Part shown: positions 39,803-44,452 of the stretch, in pieces
Numbering within the stretch: position 1 is the first letter of the stretch
Layout: every line of letters starts with the position of its first letter
Assembly (NCBI GenBank): GCA_948470065.1
Contig: CAOKNO010000015.1
Span: 1-44,452 of the forward strand
DNA: 44,452 nt
From: an uncultured Eubacterium sp.
Lineage (GTDB): Bacteria > Bacillota > Clostridia > Lachnospirales > Lachnospiraceae
Direction: 5' to 3'
The notes under the pieces: model-generated
The model's input: only the letters and a program-made list of their open reading frames with translations
The model's database searches: none
What the model was told of the DNA's origin: nothing
Translations under genes and position numbers: made by a program

Positions 39803-40432
39803 TTACATGGGATTCTCCATCTCCCTGCGAAGCTTTTCCAACGCACGTTTTTCTATCCTGCTGACATAAGAACGGGAAATCCCCAACCGATCGGCGATTT
39901 CACGCTGGGTTACTGGCTTTTGGTTATAAAGCCCATACCTCCATTTGATGATTTCCTGTTCCCTTTTGTTCAGTACCTTAGGTATCATTTCATAGACCCT
40001 TCTGGTGTTCCCCTTTAATTCTATTACTTCAAAGATGTCGCGATCCGTACTTTCAACTACATCCATCAGGTTTATCTGGTTCCCCTCTTTATCCGTCCCA
40101 ATCGGTTCATACAAAGACACTTCCCTAGAAGTCTTCTTCTTCCCACGGAAATACATCAGAAGCTCATTGTCAATGCAACGGGCCGCATACGTAGCCAGGC
40201 GGTTCCCACGTTCATAATTAAAAGTAGCTATGGCCTTGATTAAGCCGATTGTCCCAATCGAAATCAAATCTTCCATATCCTCTTCCCCATTCTGGTATTT
40301 CTTGGAAACATGGGCTACCAGCCTTAAGTTCCGTTCTACTAAAATCTGTCTAGCCTCAAGGTCGCCCTCTTTCATTTTTTCCAGATAATACTTTTCTTCC
40401 TCTGCGTCCAACGGCATTAAAAACGTTTCCAA
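39803..40432 (-). CDS. sigK: Sporulation sigma factor SigK (without visible pro-sequence)
   Basis: SigK is the late mother-cell sigma factor of sporulation. The product has region 2 (LVERNLRLVAHVSKKYQNGE, EDLISIGTIGLIKAIATFNY, LATYAARCIDNELLMYFR) and region 4 with helix-turn-helix VTQREIADRLGISRSYVSRI; the gene is intact, without a skin-type insertion. The N-terminus (TFLMPLDAEEEKYYLEKM) aligns with the mature form of B. subtilis SigK: no hydrophobic pro-sequence precedes it. I choose the TTG at 40432, with GAGGTG 6 bases upstream; a GTG at 40441 or ATG at 40417 are alternatives. The related SigE family is possible but the match in region 2 favours SigK. Confidence 0.88.
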   Translation of the reverse strand: METFLMPLDAEEEKYYLEKMKEGDLEARQILVERNLRLVAHVSKKYQNGEEDMEDLISIGTIGLIKAIATFNYERGNRLATYAARCIDNELLMYFRGKKKTSREVSLYEPIGTDKEGNQINLMDVVESTDRDIFEVIELKGNTRRVYEMIPKVLNKREQEIIKWRYGLYNQKPVTQREIADRLGISRSYVSRIEKRALEKLRREMENPM

Positions 40433-40518
40433 AATGCGCACCTCTAAGCTGATTTATTATATTCTATGAAAAATCAAGCTTCCAAGTGCATTTCCACCTC
40501 AGAAATAATTTTACCATC

Positions 40519-40546
40519 TTGAAAATACCGGAAAACGTAGTATACT
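40519..40546 (+). promoter_or_regulatory. Promoter of the DUF4250 gene
   Basis: TTGAAA (40519-40524), a 16-base spacer and TATACT (40541-40546) on the plus strand. Transcription would start near 40553, just before the Shine-Dalgarno AGGAGGTGAT, giving a leader of only about 14 bases. Confidence 0.65.
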
Positions 40547-40566
40547 GACCATCAGGAGGTGATAGG

Positions 40567-40743
40567 ATGGAATTGCCTAAAGATCCAGTGATGCTTTTGA
40601 GCGTCGTCAACATGTACCTGCGCGACCGCTACCCATCGCTGGAAGAATTTTGCCAAAGCAACGGCGTCAGCCAAAAAGATCTGATCCTCTCTTTGGCATC
40701 GATTGATTACCATTATGATCCAGAAAAAAACCGCTTTCTATAA
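40567..40743 (+). CDS. DUF4250 family small protein
   Basis: This 58-residue frame starts MELPKDPVMLLSVVNMYLRD, continues with RYPSLEEFCQSNGVSQKDLI and ends ASIDYHYDPEKNRFL. That is the whole pattern of the DUF4250 family, small Clostridia proteins of unknown function. It is predicted to be a compact helical cytoplasmic protein. A near-perfect Shine-Dalgarno (AGGAGGTGAT, 40554-40563) and a promoter precede it. It is the only plus-strand gene in the window and diverges from sigK. Its stop codon lies inside the loop and stem of the terminator at 40724-40750. Confidence 0.9.
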   Translation: MELPKDPVMLLSVVNMYLRDRYPSLEEFCQSNGVSQKDLILSLASIDYHYDPEKNRFL

Positions 40744-40750
40744 GCGGTTT
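40724..40750 (-). terminator. Terminator for the glgX-like/traX/DUF5662 unit, overlapping the DUF4250 end
   Basis: AAACCGCTT (40728-40736) and AAGCGGTTT (40742-40750) form a perfect 9-bp stem with a 5-base loop; on the minus strand seven T follow. It stops transcription coming from DUF5662. For the plus-strand gene the T-run is short (3), so it may act in both directions with different strength. Confidence 0.88.
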
Positions 40751-40779
40751 TCCCTGGCTCTCTATACGTCTCTTTGCAT

Positions 40780-41319
40780 TTAATACACATCCTGCTTCAA
40801 GACAACCTCTTTCACGTAACGGAACGCCGCTTCCTCGCCCTGTTGCGCCAGCATATGGAGCAAGGTTTCAAGCAGCGCCCGGGTGTCCTTGTGCAGGATA
40901 TAGTGTTCCTTGCCATTCTCGTAATATTCCAACGGGCTTCTGTCCGTATACTTCTCTTTCTGGTAATTTTTCGAGGCGGAGATACGGTCGATAAACATCT
41001 CGACCACATATTTTACTGGCATTTTCATGCCCGTTATGCCTTTTTCTTCCCCCGCCCCATAGTCAATCCAATATTCCAGATGATGCTTATTCCTGCCTTT
41101 GTGGTGCAGCCAGGCCGAAGAATACCCCTTTTCTTTGCGTTCCGCGTTATTGGGGCTTACGTTCCCCTGGAAATACCTGCACCCAACCAAGAACTCTGTA
41201 GGGCTGTATTTGGACAAATCATGCAAAAGCCCCTGACGGTACAGCCCCACGCGGAAGCATCCCTTTAGGACCAGCATTTTGTGATGGTTGATTGTCTTTA
41301 AATGTCGCCATGCTTTCAT
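40780..41319 (-). CDS. DUF5662 family protein (possible metal-binding, HD-like)
   Basis: The 179-residue product matches the DUF5662 pattern: NHHKMLVLKGCFRVGLYRQG, LLHDLSKYSPTEF (His33-Asp34), WLHHKGRNKHHLEYW (His72, 73, 79, 80) and a helical C-terminus with LLHMLAQQGE. The arrangement of His12/13, His33-Asp34 and the second His cluster recalls HD-type metal phosphohydrolases, but no activity is known to me. GGAG lies about 11 bases before the ATG, which follows the traX stop by 3 bases, so the two are co-transcribed. Annotation of this family as catalase, seen in some databases, is not supported by the sequence. Confidence 0.85.
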   Translation of the reverse strand: MKAWRHLKTINHHKMLVLKGCFRVGLYRQGLLHDLSKYSPTEFLVGCRYFQGNVSPNNAERKEKGYSSAWLHHKGRNKHHLEYWIDYGAGEEKGITGMKMPVKYVVEMFIDRISASKNYQKEKYTDRSPLEYYENGKEHYILHKDTRALLETLLHMLAQQGEEAAFRYVKEVVLKQDVY

Positions 41320-41322
41320 TAC

Positions 41323-42030
41323 TTACAATGCTCCTGTCAAAATAAAATGTTTCACAAAGAAAAGTATAAGTAGGTGCAGAGGATAAAATACATAAAAGAA
41401 GTACTTCATCGAAGGCCCTCGCCTGCCATTGTAAAGCAGAAGAGGGAATACCGAAAACCCTGCATATTTCTGGACATTCCCAGAAGCGGCGAACCAATTC
41501 AGCGCCGCAAAGGCTGCCTGTTTCGCAAATACAGAATCATAAAACCAGTAAAAACACAAGATAAACAGCACTCCGGCGGAAACATAGTCCGTATGGAATA
41601 CCTCTGCTGCAAAAACCGCTAAAACATACAAACACACCCGCCCTACACGGGACTTACAACGCCCACTGGCATCTATCGCCAAAAGGCCGATCAGCAGCGT
41701 AAAGAACACGTTCTGGCGCCCTAACGTAAGTTCGTCAAAAAAAGCCAGATCGAACGGAATCTCAGACACAAGGGCAAATGCGAAAAGCCGCGCTTCGTAT
41801 CTTCTGATATTGCTCGTATGCACCGCTCCTTCCACCAACAGAAAACAGTAGATCGGGAACGAAATCCTCCCTACCATCCGCAGTTCCATGCAGCCGGGAA
41901 ACAGCACGGCCCCCAGATGATCCAAAAACATAGTGATCATGGCAATACACTTGAGCGTAAAGCCGCTGATGCCAATCTCATGCCCTCCAATTACCAAACC
42001 CTTCGCTTGGCCGATGTATTCTTGTCCCAT
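41323..42030 (-). CDS. TraX family membrane protein
   Basis: TraX of the F plasmid acetylates pilin; chromosomal homologues in Firmicutes are of unknown target. The 235-residue product has about seven to eight membrane helices and the TraX core: SGFTLKCIAMITMFLDHLGA, LRMVGRISFPIYCFLLVEGA with HTSNIRRYEARLFAFALVSE and IPFDLAF. The start is the ATG at 42030, with AAAGGAG upstream; the frame extends to a TTG 21 bases earlier, inside that site. It lies 24 bases after the glgX-like stop and directly before DUF5662. An acyl group transfer across the membrane is a plausible, unproven role. Confidence 0.88.
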   Translation of the reverse strand: MGQEYIGQAKGLVIGGHEIGISGFTLKCIAMITMFLDHLGAVLFPGCMELRMVGRISFPIYCFLLVEGAVHTSNIRRYEARLFAFALVSEIPFDLAFFDELTLGRQNVFFTLLIGLLAIDASGRCKSRVGRVCLYVLAVFAAEVFHTDYVSAGVLFILCFYWFYDSVFAKQAAFAALNWFAASGNVQKYAGFSVFPLLLYNGRRGPSMKYFFYVFYPLHLLILFFVKHFILTGAL

Positions 42031-42054
42031 ATCCCCAAACTCCTTTAACAATCC

Positions 42055-44034
42055 TTATCTGCGGCTTACGCCCTTCCCTCGCCTTTTTGGCTTCTTCTCT
42101 TTAATAGGTTTCCCACGCAGCAGGCAGACGGACTGCTCTGCCGCCTCAAATTCCCGGATATCCTTCAGGCATTTTGGCGTTTCTAAGATGGAAGGCTCTT
42201 TGGCTGTATCCAGCAAAAGTTCCCATTCCATCCCTTTGGGAAGCGCAAATTTCTGCGGGATGTTCTGGAAATTATAAGCTACATACAGGTTTGTTTCTTC
42301 CCCTGCATAAGCCCCGCAGTAAAACATCCCGACAAAACTCCGGTTCATGGCAAAATCCACCCACCACCCGCTGTCGCTGTGGTAAGACAAATCCGGGCAT
42401 CCATGCCCTTCGTAATCCTGCATCTGGTAAGGCTGTGGGCTGCGCAGCGCCGGATGCTCCTTCCGGATCCTGGCAAGCCCCTGTAAGAACGACTGGATCT
42501 GCTTTGCAGCAACTGTCGTATTCCAATCCTTCCACCCAATGCTGTTATCCTGGCAATACGCATTATTGTTCCCTCGCTGGCTGTTGGCGCATTCGTCCCC
42601 CATCCATACCATTGGGATCCCCTGTCCAAAAAACAGGGCTGTAAAGGCGTTCTTGATCTGCCGTTTCCTTCCCTCTTTGACCTGGCGGCTTTTGCTGATC
42701 CCTTCCTGCCCGCAGTTTATGCTGAAATTCCAATTGTTCCCATCCTGGTTGCCCTCTAGGTTCTGTTCGTTGTGCTTATGCTCATAAGAAAAGAGATCCC
42801 AAAGGGTAAACCCATTGTTCTCCGTCACATAATTCACAAATCCCTGGCATTCCTGCTGCCTGCGCATCTGGCAGGCAAATTCATAAATACTCCCTCCCCT
42901 ATGGTTCAATACCTTACGAATCTCGTAAAGGAAGGTATCGTTATAAGTAAACAGCTCTGGCCCAATCCGCTTTGGATCCTTTGCCAAATCCTCCGGGAAA
43001 CCTTCATAAAACAGCTTGCACCCGCTCAACGCCGGATCTACTGCTGCCAGGCATGCGATTTCGTACCCACCGATCAGCCGGAAACCGTCTACATGGTATT
43101 CCCTGTGCCAATAATGCAAAATCTCTAAAATTAAATGTGGATTTATCTTTTCAGGGAAATAAAATTCCAAGATACATTCCATCTGCTTTTGGTGCATCTT
43201 CTGGATCAGCCGCTTCAAATGATCGGGGTGGTTCCCTTCTCCTAGGAAAGAAGCCTTGGGTGCAAAATAATTCCCTGCGGCATACCCCCAGCAATTGATT
43301 AAATCTTTTGGGTTCTCCTGCTGTTTGCCCGCGTCCTGGCACAGTATTTCCTCAAACTCATAGAGTGGCATAAACAATAGCGTCGTAACCCCAAACCCCT
43401 TTAAGTAGTTAAGCCTGCGTTCTATTGCTTCTACCGTCCCGCGGCCGCCTCCTTCCCCTTTCATCCCCATCGAAAATCCACGCACATGCAATTTGTAGAG
43501 CACCATGTCTTCTTTTTTAATCCTTTGGAATCCCTCATCTTTCCATTTAAAATCCGAGAAATAAAATGAACTTTTAATTTTTGTACCATCCATTTTTTCT
43601 TTATCCTGGCCAAAGCCCTGCCGGATCCTTTTTTGTCCAGCTCTTCCTTTGCCCCGCGGCTCTTTCCCGGATTCCGCCTGTTCCTTCTGAGGGATAAACC
43701 CTTTCGGCGGCAAAGCTGCCATCCGGCGTGTTTCCTCCGCCCAAACCTCACGCCCAGAAATCCTGCGGGCGTATACGTCTGTCGTTTCTTCTCCATTTAC
43801 TTCAAAATTATAGTCGTAATTTTCCCAATCCAAACCGCAGATTCCAACCGTATAAATAGTACCACAGCTTCCCTGTGCTTTCATAGGAATTTTCACAACC
43901 GGACTGCCATCTTTCGGATACAATAACAAATAGCAACTTGATTCCCTTGCTGCCCGCCTGGAAAATGAAACGATGCCATTCTGCCTTGTTACGCCTACGT
44001 TCTCCTTACTTCCGGTACAAATTTGAAAATCCAT
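42055..44034 (-). CDS. GlgX-like GH13 protein lacking catalytic residues
   Basis: The 659-residue product follows glycogen debranching enzymes (GlgX/isoamylase type): an N-terminal CBM48-like domain (about 10-100), a Lys/Gly/Glu-rich linker (about 115-155) and a GH13 barrel with VTTLLFMPLYEFEE, CWGYAAGNYFAPKASF and GNNNAYCQDNS. The catalytic sites are changed. Region I, normally DVVYNH, reads EFYFPE (290-295). The nucleophile position in VDGFRxD is Ile321 (VDGFRLIG). Region IV, normally AHDGFTL, reads ENNGFTL (405-411), with Asn407 in place of Asp. Only the general acid Glu344 (FYEGF) remains. It is probably not a hydrolase. The frame is intact, so not a pseudogene. GGGAGGG precedes the ATG. 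Confidence 0.88.
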   Translation of the reverse strand: MDFQICTGSKENVGVTRQNGIVSFSRRAARESSCYLLLYPKDGSPVVKIPMKAQGSCGTIYTVGICGLDWENYDYNFEVNGEETTDVYARRISGREVWAEETRRMAALPPKGFIPQKEQAESGKEPRGKGRAGQKRIRQGFGQDKEKMDGTKIKSSFYFSDFKWKDEGFQRIKKEDMVLYKLHVRGFSMGMKGEGGGRGTVEAIERRLNYLKGFGVTTLLFMPLYEFEEILCQDAGKQQENPKDLINCWGYAAGNYFAPKASFLGEGNHPDHLKRLIQKMHQKQMECILEFYFPEKINPHLILEILHYWHREYHVDGFRLIGGYEIACLAAVDPALSGCKLFYEGFPEDLAKDPKRIGPELFTYNDTFLYEIRKVLNHRGGSIYEFACQMRRQQECQGFVNYVTENNGFTLWDLFSYEHKHNEQNLEGNQDGNNWNFSINCGQEGISKSRQVKEGRKRQIKNAFTALFFGQGIPMVWMGDECANSQRGNNNAYCQDNSIGWKDWNTTVAAKQIQSFLQGLARIRKEHPALRSPQPYQMQDYEGHGCPDLSYHSDSGWWVDFAMNRSFVGMFYCGAYAGEETNLYVAYNFQNIPQKFALPKGMEWELLLDTAKEPSILETPKCLKDIREFEAAEQSVCLLRGKPIKEKKPKRRGKGVSRR

Positions 44035-44240
44035 ATGTTGTCCCTCCCTGTTGCCTGTTCCTCTGTGTGTTATGTTGTCTCATCCACAGCCGCAGGCCGC
44101 CGCTATGGATCGCCACGCCATAGATTGTACTATCTGTAGTTTCCTATGACACCTCCGCCGTACGCAAAACCGGATAACCCGTATCTTTCCATCTGGCAGA
44201 CCTTGCTAATTTAGGCGAAACTGTCAAACTTTTACACTTT
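44035..44240 (-). promoter_or_regulatory. Long 5' leader of the glgX-like gene
   Basis: If the promoter at 44241-44269 is used, the leader is about 200 bases. It holds a hairpin CTATGG/CCATAG (44101-44121), a GC-rich stretch that can fold with it, and a 20-codon frame (44130-44192). I cannot assign it to a riboswitch class that I know; the c-di-GMP-I core was looked for and is not there. Confidence 0.4.
44130..44192 (-). other. Possible 20-codon leader peptide
   Basis: A frame of 20 codons starts MERYGLSGFAYGGG and ends with TAG. AAGG lies about 8 bases before the ATG. It is Gly/Tyr-rich. It may be a leader peptide or chance; only the frame and a weak ribosome binding site support it. Confidence 0.25.
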
Positions 44241-44269
44241 ATTATAGCAACTCCGGAAAGCTTTGGGAA
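44241..44269 (-). promoter_or_regulatory. Probable promoter of the glgX-like/traX/DUF5662 unit
   Basis: On the minus strand TTCCCA (44264-44269), a 17-base spacer and TATAAT (44241-44246). The -35 matches 4 of 6 consensus bases; an A-rich tract (seven A) lies just upstream and may act as an UP element. The region between this and the intron end (44270-44399) holds an AT-rich stretch and a 7-bp inverted repeat (44336-44352) and no gene that I can see. Confidence 0.55.
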
Positions 44270-44399
44270 GCGTTTTTTTATTATTCTCAGAAATTTGTAT
44301 TATTTTTTTTCAGACATAATTGGAATAACCTTCAAATCGGCAAGCTGCCGATACCATATATCGTAGAAAACAGTTATCTCATATGAAAAGAGGATGCTG

Positions 44400-44452
44400 A
44401 TCGGGTAGGAGGCTACCCATTAGTTGAGTAGCCGACCTCCCACACCACTGTA
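44400..44452 (-). mobile_element. 3' end of a group II intron (domain VI)
   Basis: Read on the minus strand the last 53 bases contain a D6 hairpin: GGG-AGG-(UC)-GGCUAC, an 11-base loop, GUAGCC-(U)-CCU-A-CCC, then GAU at the 3' end. The A (plus T at 44406) is bulged between CCU and CCC, seven bases from the end (44400), where a group II branch point belongs. GGUGUGGGAGG before D6 matches the domain V-VI joint that I know from bacterial group II introns. Domain V, the rest of the ribozyme and any reverse transcriptase gene are beyond the right edge. The 3' exon continues leftward toward the glgX-like promoter. Confidence 0.75.

Follow-up and report, generated by a model that had tools for sequence, protein, structure and literature searches.

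A GlgX-type protein without its catalytic residues is widespread in Lachnospiraceae

The window, the whole 44,452-nucleotide stretch of uncultured Eubacterium sp. DNA that we analysed, encodes a protein of the glycogen-debranching GlgX type (GH13_11) that belongs to a form in which catalysis is almost certainly lost. Judged from the sequences compared, this dead form has lost the catalytic machinery and the β3–α3 loop family-wide, purifying selection maintains both the barrel and the gene, and most of the positions at which an active GlgX contacts the outer glucose units are retained together with the loops that carry them. We regard an α-glucan-binding pseudoenzyme that scaffolds or tunes glycogen metabolism, fixed in the ancestor of most Lachnospiraceae, as the best explanation, with a probability of roughly 0.55.

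The window gene and its close relatives

The open frame of 659 codons described in the initial annotation begins with an ATG behind a ribosome-binding site and contains no stops (Table 1), and relatives of the window pseudo-GlgX have similar sequence 5' of the start codon. Region I reads ILEFYFPE, where most of the true GlgX sampled read DVVFNH; the Asn and the His of this region are both lost, in addition to the change from Asp to Glu290. Region IV reads ENNGFTL, and here too the loss goes beyond the Asp (N407), as the region IV His is also gone (N406). The changes first noticed (EFYFPE in region I, Ile321 for the nucleophile Asp and Asn407 for the region IV Asp) are thus all present in the sequence, as are the two family landmarks NYFAPKASF and GNNNAYCQDN. 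The positions of the GH13 catalytic triad Asp/Glu/Asp are occupied by I321, E344 and N407, and the protein scores 268.1 bits with the GlgX equivalog model TIGR02100, below the curated cut-off of 640.9. By sequence, its best solved relatives are GlgX/TreX and the isoamylases.

Table 1. Features of the pseudo-GlgX gene and its surroundings in the window
Feature	Position	Strand	Remarks
Pseudo-GlgX gene	42055..44034	-	659 codons, 659 aa; ORF intact, no stops
Pseudo-GlgX start	ATG at 44034; ribosome-binding site GGGAGG at 44043..44048	-	From sequence
Pseudo-GlgX domains			CBM48-like N-terminus, linker, (β/α)8 barrel without β3–α3 loop, C-terminal β domain
Glu290 codon	43165..43167	-	Region I Asp position
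Residues 294–298	43141..43155	-	Short β3–α3 turn; true GlgX about 44 residues longer here
Ile321, codon ATC	43072..43074	-	Position of nucleophile Asp
Glu344	43003..43005	-	Aligned with region III acid/base Glu; Glu in 28/171 members (window included)
Asn406–Asn407	42814..42819	-	Replace region IV His–Asp
Glu427	42754..42756	-	Counterpart by alignment of Glu470, an outer-sugar contact in S. venezuelae GlgX; 168/171 have Glu
GNNNAY (488–493)	42556..42573	-	Asn491 and Tyr493 align with Asn534 and Tyr536, which contact the outer sugars in S. venezuelae GlgX; kept in 170 and 160 of 171
σA-like promoter match TTCCCA-17-TATAAT, TG extension	44241..44269	-	Consensus match only
TraX-family protein	41323..42051	-	PF05857, 162.7 bits; neighbour, downstream of pseudo-GlgX
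TraX start			Longest reading TTG, 3 nt downstream; ATG 42030 behind AAAGGAG, 24 nt downstream, more likely
DUF5662 protein	40780..41319	-	PF18907; after traX

Nine σA-like consensus sites were found in 40400–44452, against 5.5 expected. The window contains no Rfam family at the gathering score, and there are no inverted repeats within 44000–44452.

In a single scan of GTDB species genomes we recovered 16 close homologues, 59–67% identical to the window protein, with record titles that are all Lachnospiraceae or Eubacterium; the frame is open across the match in each of them. The window protein and these 16 share ILEFYF in region I, Ile, Leu or Met at the nucleophile position and ENNGF in region IV, with a variable region III. 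E290, N406 and N407 are invariant in 17/17 and their codons vary synonymously, so these residues reflect neither chance nor a sequencing artefact. The dN/dS values of the ten closest pairs (Nei–Gojobori; close relatives) range from 0.097 to 0.137, which indicates purifying selection, dS being below 1 in just the three closest pairs and the remaining values rough. Catalytic loss conserved across the clade is combined with purifying selection, as expected of an ISA2-like protein, the dN/dS values here coming from close relatives only.

Catalytic residues, glucan contacts and predicted structure

For a wider survey, 120 further loci were fetched. The alignment combines 171 distinct dead-form members, the window protein among them, with 22 true GlgX (loci L122–L133 and L144–L153), of which 16 come from Lachnospiraceae and the remaining 6 from further families of the class. 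L032 (= L013), L033, L137 and L138 (duplicates of the window or of L074) were left out, as were L154–L163, which are second segments of other loci. Every catalytic residue is present in 22/22 true GlgX. Of the 171 dead-form members, one has the nucleophile Asp; 16 have the region I Asp and 2 the His, with an acid or amide (E, Q or D) kept in this region in 166; the region III Glu is found in 28 (absent in 143), the region IV His in 54 and the region IV Asp in 38. The sole dead-form sequence with Asp at the nucleophile position, L173, also has the region IV Asp; the Asp and His of region I, the Glu of region III and the His of region IV are all missing from it. An alignment had been proposed as a check on the initial annotation; it contains no conserved Asp nucleophile in the dead form, 170/171 members being without it and 22/22 true GlgX having it.

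The span from region I to the nucleophile is 75 residues in 22/22 true GlgX versus 30–31 in 171/171 dead-form members, all of which have a β3–α3 loop that is shorter by about 44 residues. In an unrooted FastTree tree of 162 dead-form and 22 true sequences (9/193 sequences fell short of 560 aa and were excluded), the two groups split with a local support of 1.0. Residues that are at least 85% conserved in the dead form and below 20% in true GlgX are K260, F368, E427, Q471, D540 and D548; this set yields no candidate for a relocated catalytic Asp or Glu.

The loops after β3, β4 and β5 have a conservation of 0.26–0.30 in the dead form versus 0.95–0.99 in true GlgX and are the least conserved segments tabulated, with the proviso that linker sites are a gap artefact and the short loops beside the deletion align poorly. 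The loops after β7 and β8 have values of 0.70–0.72, versus 0.82–0.85 in true GlgX; in the dead form this is level with the core strands β4 and β5 (0.70) and among the best conserved.

The glucan contacts of GlgX are named for the S. venezuelae GlgX–acarbose complex in the accessible text of PMC9530166. We mapped them by aligning the window protein to the solved GlgX, with the numbering offset derived from the nucleophile. Contacts of the -1 subsite are mostly lost, His271, Asp342, Glu378, Trp380 and His449 being present in 2, 1, 28, 47 and 54 of 171 members, respectively. Trp222 and Tyr224, which correspond to Trp249 and Tyr251 of the window protein, are kept in 170 and 154. Three of the four outer-sugar contacts are kept in 160–170 of the 171, with Glu470, Asn534 and Tyr536 (Glu427, Asn491 and Tyr493) found in 168, 170 and 160, respectively; the fourth, Arg212, is found in 4/171 and in 8/22 true GlgX. 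Since Glu470 is replaced in 20/22 true GlgX (Glu in 2/22, Trp in 18/22), the near-complete fixation of this Glu among dead-form members stands out. The combined pattern of conservation and contacts fits a protein that would hold α-glucan without cutting it. Two points speak against glucan binding through the kept contacts: Trp249 and Tyr251 are -1 site residues, and the β7 and β8 loops may have been retained for structural reasons or as an interface.

The predicted model of the window protein (pLDDT 66.5, pTM 0.70; moderate confidence) contains all eight barrel strands, with β3 passing via a short turn into α3, and has the make-up of the GH13_11 fold group: a CBM48-like N-domain, a (β/α)8 barrel and an isoamylase-type C-terminal β domain. 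pLDDT falls below 50 at 416–440 and 488–497, which are the retained loops. A first model, based on 17 close sequences (A1), had a pLDDT of 47.8 and was set aside. In a Foldseek search with the predicted model, the top matches were rice ISA1 and Streptomyces GlgX, with ISA2 structures also similar, in line with the barrel of glycogen-debranching type originally recognised. A CBM_48 match was found in 6/38 members and not in the window protein. The view that selection keeps the fold without catalysis likewise holds up, given the dN/dS of about 0.10–0.14 in the ten closest pairs, the open frames in 16/16 homologues, the nucleophile lost from nearly every member and the complete set of predicted barrel strands.

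Distribution, neighbouring genes and glycogen genes

A profile of 17 sequences (A1) matches 164/200 sampled Lachnospiraceae genomes at E ≤ 1e-20. By score, 158/200 carry the dead form; 151 of these were residue-checked and seven were assigned by score alone (G005, G057, G113, G130, G148, G165 and G191). Six weak A1 matches were counted as without the dead form, namely G004, G048 and G053, all three of which have true GlgX, and G074, G147 and G189, which are of uncertain type, and unlisted genomes without an A1 match were filled in by elimination. In an order-wide sample, 20/22 genomes of the same family matched over the full length without a break, with 663 bits or more, and the dead form was found in 0/174 genomes outside Lachnospiraceae, where the best match had 378 bits and GlgX-like matches break near the site of the extra loop of true GlgX. 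A class-wide sample, which has at least three genomes in common with the order-wide one, likewise gave the dead form in 0/281 genomes outside the family. Six of these 281 match at E ≤ 1e-40, all six split near the extra-loop position; four contain all true-GlgX motifs searched for, and the other two (L148 and L149) fail some strict motif patterns and have all catalytic residues in the alignment.

The TraX neighbour noted at the outset is real (Table 1) and is probably in the same transcript as pseudo-GlgX. The suggestion that the dead form is a local clade beside traX did not survive the wider sampling: the form is spread over Lachnospiraceae, and of the 161 loci with 1 kb or more of downstream sequence (out of 165, L032 (= L013) among them), 54 have a same-strand TraX gene downstream. 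DUF5662 occupies such a position in 94 of the 161, either gene in 117 and neither in 44. Eight loci with DG[IFV]HLVG at region II (L069, L071, L073, L079, L081, L087, L108 and L109) have neither TraX nor DUF5662 downstream; DUF5662 is present at L068, L086 and L091, which read DGFHLVG. DUF5662 is found in 167/200 Lachnospiraceae genomes, including 30/42 without the dead form, and in 0/14 control genomes. We found no paper on it among the open-access papers searched; its His/Asp motifs may be HD-hydrolase-like.

Other frequent neighbours are LuxS, a W/Y-type tRNA synthetase, UvrD helicase, an ABC-type ATPase, DUF1292 and a periplasmic sugar-binding-type protein, and they differ from clade to clade (LuxS, W/Y-type tRNA synthetase, UvrD). 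LuxS is among the neighbours in 25 loci overall. At L007, fatty-acid synthesis genes lie upstream, common to up to 13/14 close relatives. sigK is nearby in the window clade; at L002:4580-5197 and L004:9638-10252 the sigK match is on the strand opposite to its neighbours, and where sigK is complete in the remaining close relatives, it has the same orientation as its neighbours. We had looked for guilt by association with glycogen genes, of which there are none among the 16 neighbour clusters listed (ten tested, one representative each), so gene context lends no support to a glycogen role.

The glycogen synthase GlgA is found in 194/200 sampled Lachnospiraceae genomes and in 38/42 without the dead form, which is thus not needed for keeping GlgA. 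True GlgX (near full strength, partial or split) is found in at least 57/200, at least 34 of them over the cut-off; since 23 of the 57 fall below 640.9 bits among the matches listed, score alone would not decide GlgX membership. The 158 dead-form genomes include at least 54 with true GlgX, 40 with type I pullulanase and 32 with GDE_C. Among the matches listed, the dead form is the sole GlgX-type protein found in 104/158. An obligate complex with true GlgX was therefore rejected as a general rule; it is possible in the other 54. None of the three debranching families was found in 74/158 (matches listed, thresholds used), an absence that depends on thresholds and genome incompleteness; 73 of these 74 have GlgA, so that debranching activity looks missing. 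None of the three turned up either in the window genome (85.5% complete) or in G176, a congener that is 99% complete. GlgA is present in the window genome, with two matches, and GlgB is over the cut-off.

True GlgX is commoner in genomes with the dead form (54/158 vs 3/42 among the matches listed; Fisher p 0.0004, kinship ignored), as is SpoIVA (115/158 vs 19/42; p 0.0014, kinship ignored). Pullulanase and GDE_C are not (p 1.0 and 0.51, respectively, kinship again ignored). The SpoIVA association could point away from glycogen, or to genome reduction.

Proposed role and its alternatives

With the cutting site gone and part of the sugar-holding surface seemingly kept, the protein probably binds or organises stored glycogen. 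Cytosolic branched α-glucan (glycogen) would be bound via the β7 and β8 loops, and the bound pseudo-GlgX would serve to scaffold or regulate either the structure of glycogen or the enzymes acting on it, on the model of ISA2 acting with ISA1 in plants. In most genomes the partner would be other than true GlgX; candidates are GlgP, or GlgA and GlgB, which are both encoded in the window genome. The initial annotation had raised the possibility of a role in glycogen binding, regulation or scaffolding, which is better grounded now that most outer-sugar-contact positions are seen to be kept; the role in glycogen metabolism is still one that we infer. A more far-reaching version, in which a family-wide non-catalytic organiser arose from a debranching enzyme in parallel with ISA2, is possible, though less likely than not, and we put it forward tentatively. 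Cells such as those of the 73 dead-form genomes that have GlgA and none of the three debranching families among the matches listed may, on this view, store or mobilise a differently built α-glucan, with its branching or granule state set by binding.

The precedents come from plants and from another step of the bacterial pathway. In every ISA2 examined in PMC12510319, as far as its accessible portion goes, at least 4/5 catalytic residues are changed; a secondary glucan site is kept, a predicted loop blocks the central channel, and polyglucan structure is affected. ISA2 thus resembles the dead form as a GH13_11 protein that has lost its nucleophile and other catalytic residues lineage-wide and has yet been retained (same source, same portion). 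Unlike ISA2, the dead form is bacterial, and a GlgX-type partner was not found in 104/158 genomes (among the matches listed). With the pseudo profile, ISA2 chains score 231 and 215 bits, and ISA1 and GlgX chains score 317–422. GlgD, described in the accessible part of PMC9093745 as an inactive ADP-glucose pyrophosphorylase subunit of Firmicutes that works with active GlgC, is likewise a catalytically dead homologue kept as a modulator in a bacterial glycogen pathway; unlike the dead form, it belongs to a different enzyme and reaction and acts alongside its active counterpart. True GlgX itself (GH13_11, TIGR02100) shares with the dead form the fold and the C-terminal motifs WGY, HNE.N.E.N.DG, NCG.EG, GDE and GNNNAYCQDN and forms a separate sister group in the tree, whereas the dead form scores far below the TIGR02100 cut-off and is without catalytic residues and β3–α3 loop. 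The c-di-GMP-regulated Streptomyces GlgX, which has the same fold (7u39 and related entries) and is the source of the contact map (PMC9530166, text as available), is, in contrast, an active enzyme.

GlgD with GlgC and ISA2 with ISA1 (PMC9093745 and PMC12510319, as far as accessible) are also precedents for dead homologues as subunits in such pathways, and conservation in the dead form centres on two loops together with the core strands. The protein might on this basis be a non-catalytic obligate subunit of GlgB, GlgP, GlgA or a different GH13, with the β7/β8 face as a protein–protein interface. We find this rather unlikely, since true GlgX, the most obvious partner, is missing from the listed matches of so many genomes, no catalytic partner gene adjoins in the neighbour clusters listed, and the kept residues coincide with mapped glucan contacts. 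Somewhat less probable still is a scaffold repurposed outside glycogen metabolism, for example in sporulation or for an envelope glycan together with TraX and the DUF5662 protein. The same-strand TraX or DUF5662 gene downstream in 117/161 loci, the SpoIVA association (kinship ignored) and the nearby sigK of the window clade argue for it; however, 43/158 dead-form genomes have no SpoIVA match, DUF5662 is frequent in genomes without the dead form too, and neighbours differ among clades.

An enzyme with relocated or unusual catalytic residues that still acts on α-glucan would account for the 74/158 genomes without the three debranching families (matches listed), 73 of them with GlgA, and the acid or amide (E, Q, D) in region I of 166/171 could be read in its favour. 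It is very improbable, as there is no new conserved acid pair among the six residues specific to the dead form, E427 is Glu in 2/22 true GlgX and in S. venezuelae GlgX, and no tabulated segments are less conserved than the catalytic loops. The loss of catalytic residues by itself would also suit a recently inactivated, decaying gene, an idea to which we give practically no credence: dN/dS of about 0.1, open frames in the window and 16 relatives and the presence by score in 158/200 genomes already contradict it.

Dead GH13_11 proteins are known from plants, and the bacterial family-wide case is, as far as we searched, undescribed: among titles and abstract openings of the open-access literature, we found plant isoamylase and general work and no description of a family-wide dead GlgX in bacteria. 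The dead form can lead to a genome being credited with a GlgX that it lacks. For Blautia obeum, the review PMC10395257, in its accessible part, counts two glgX homologues, one of which may be the dead form. A glucan-binding pseudo-GlgX would also offer a bacterial setting for the question of why a dead isoamylase such as plant ISA2 persists, and its spread raises the question of how many glycogen-making Lachnospiraceae debranch their glycogen.
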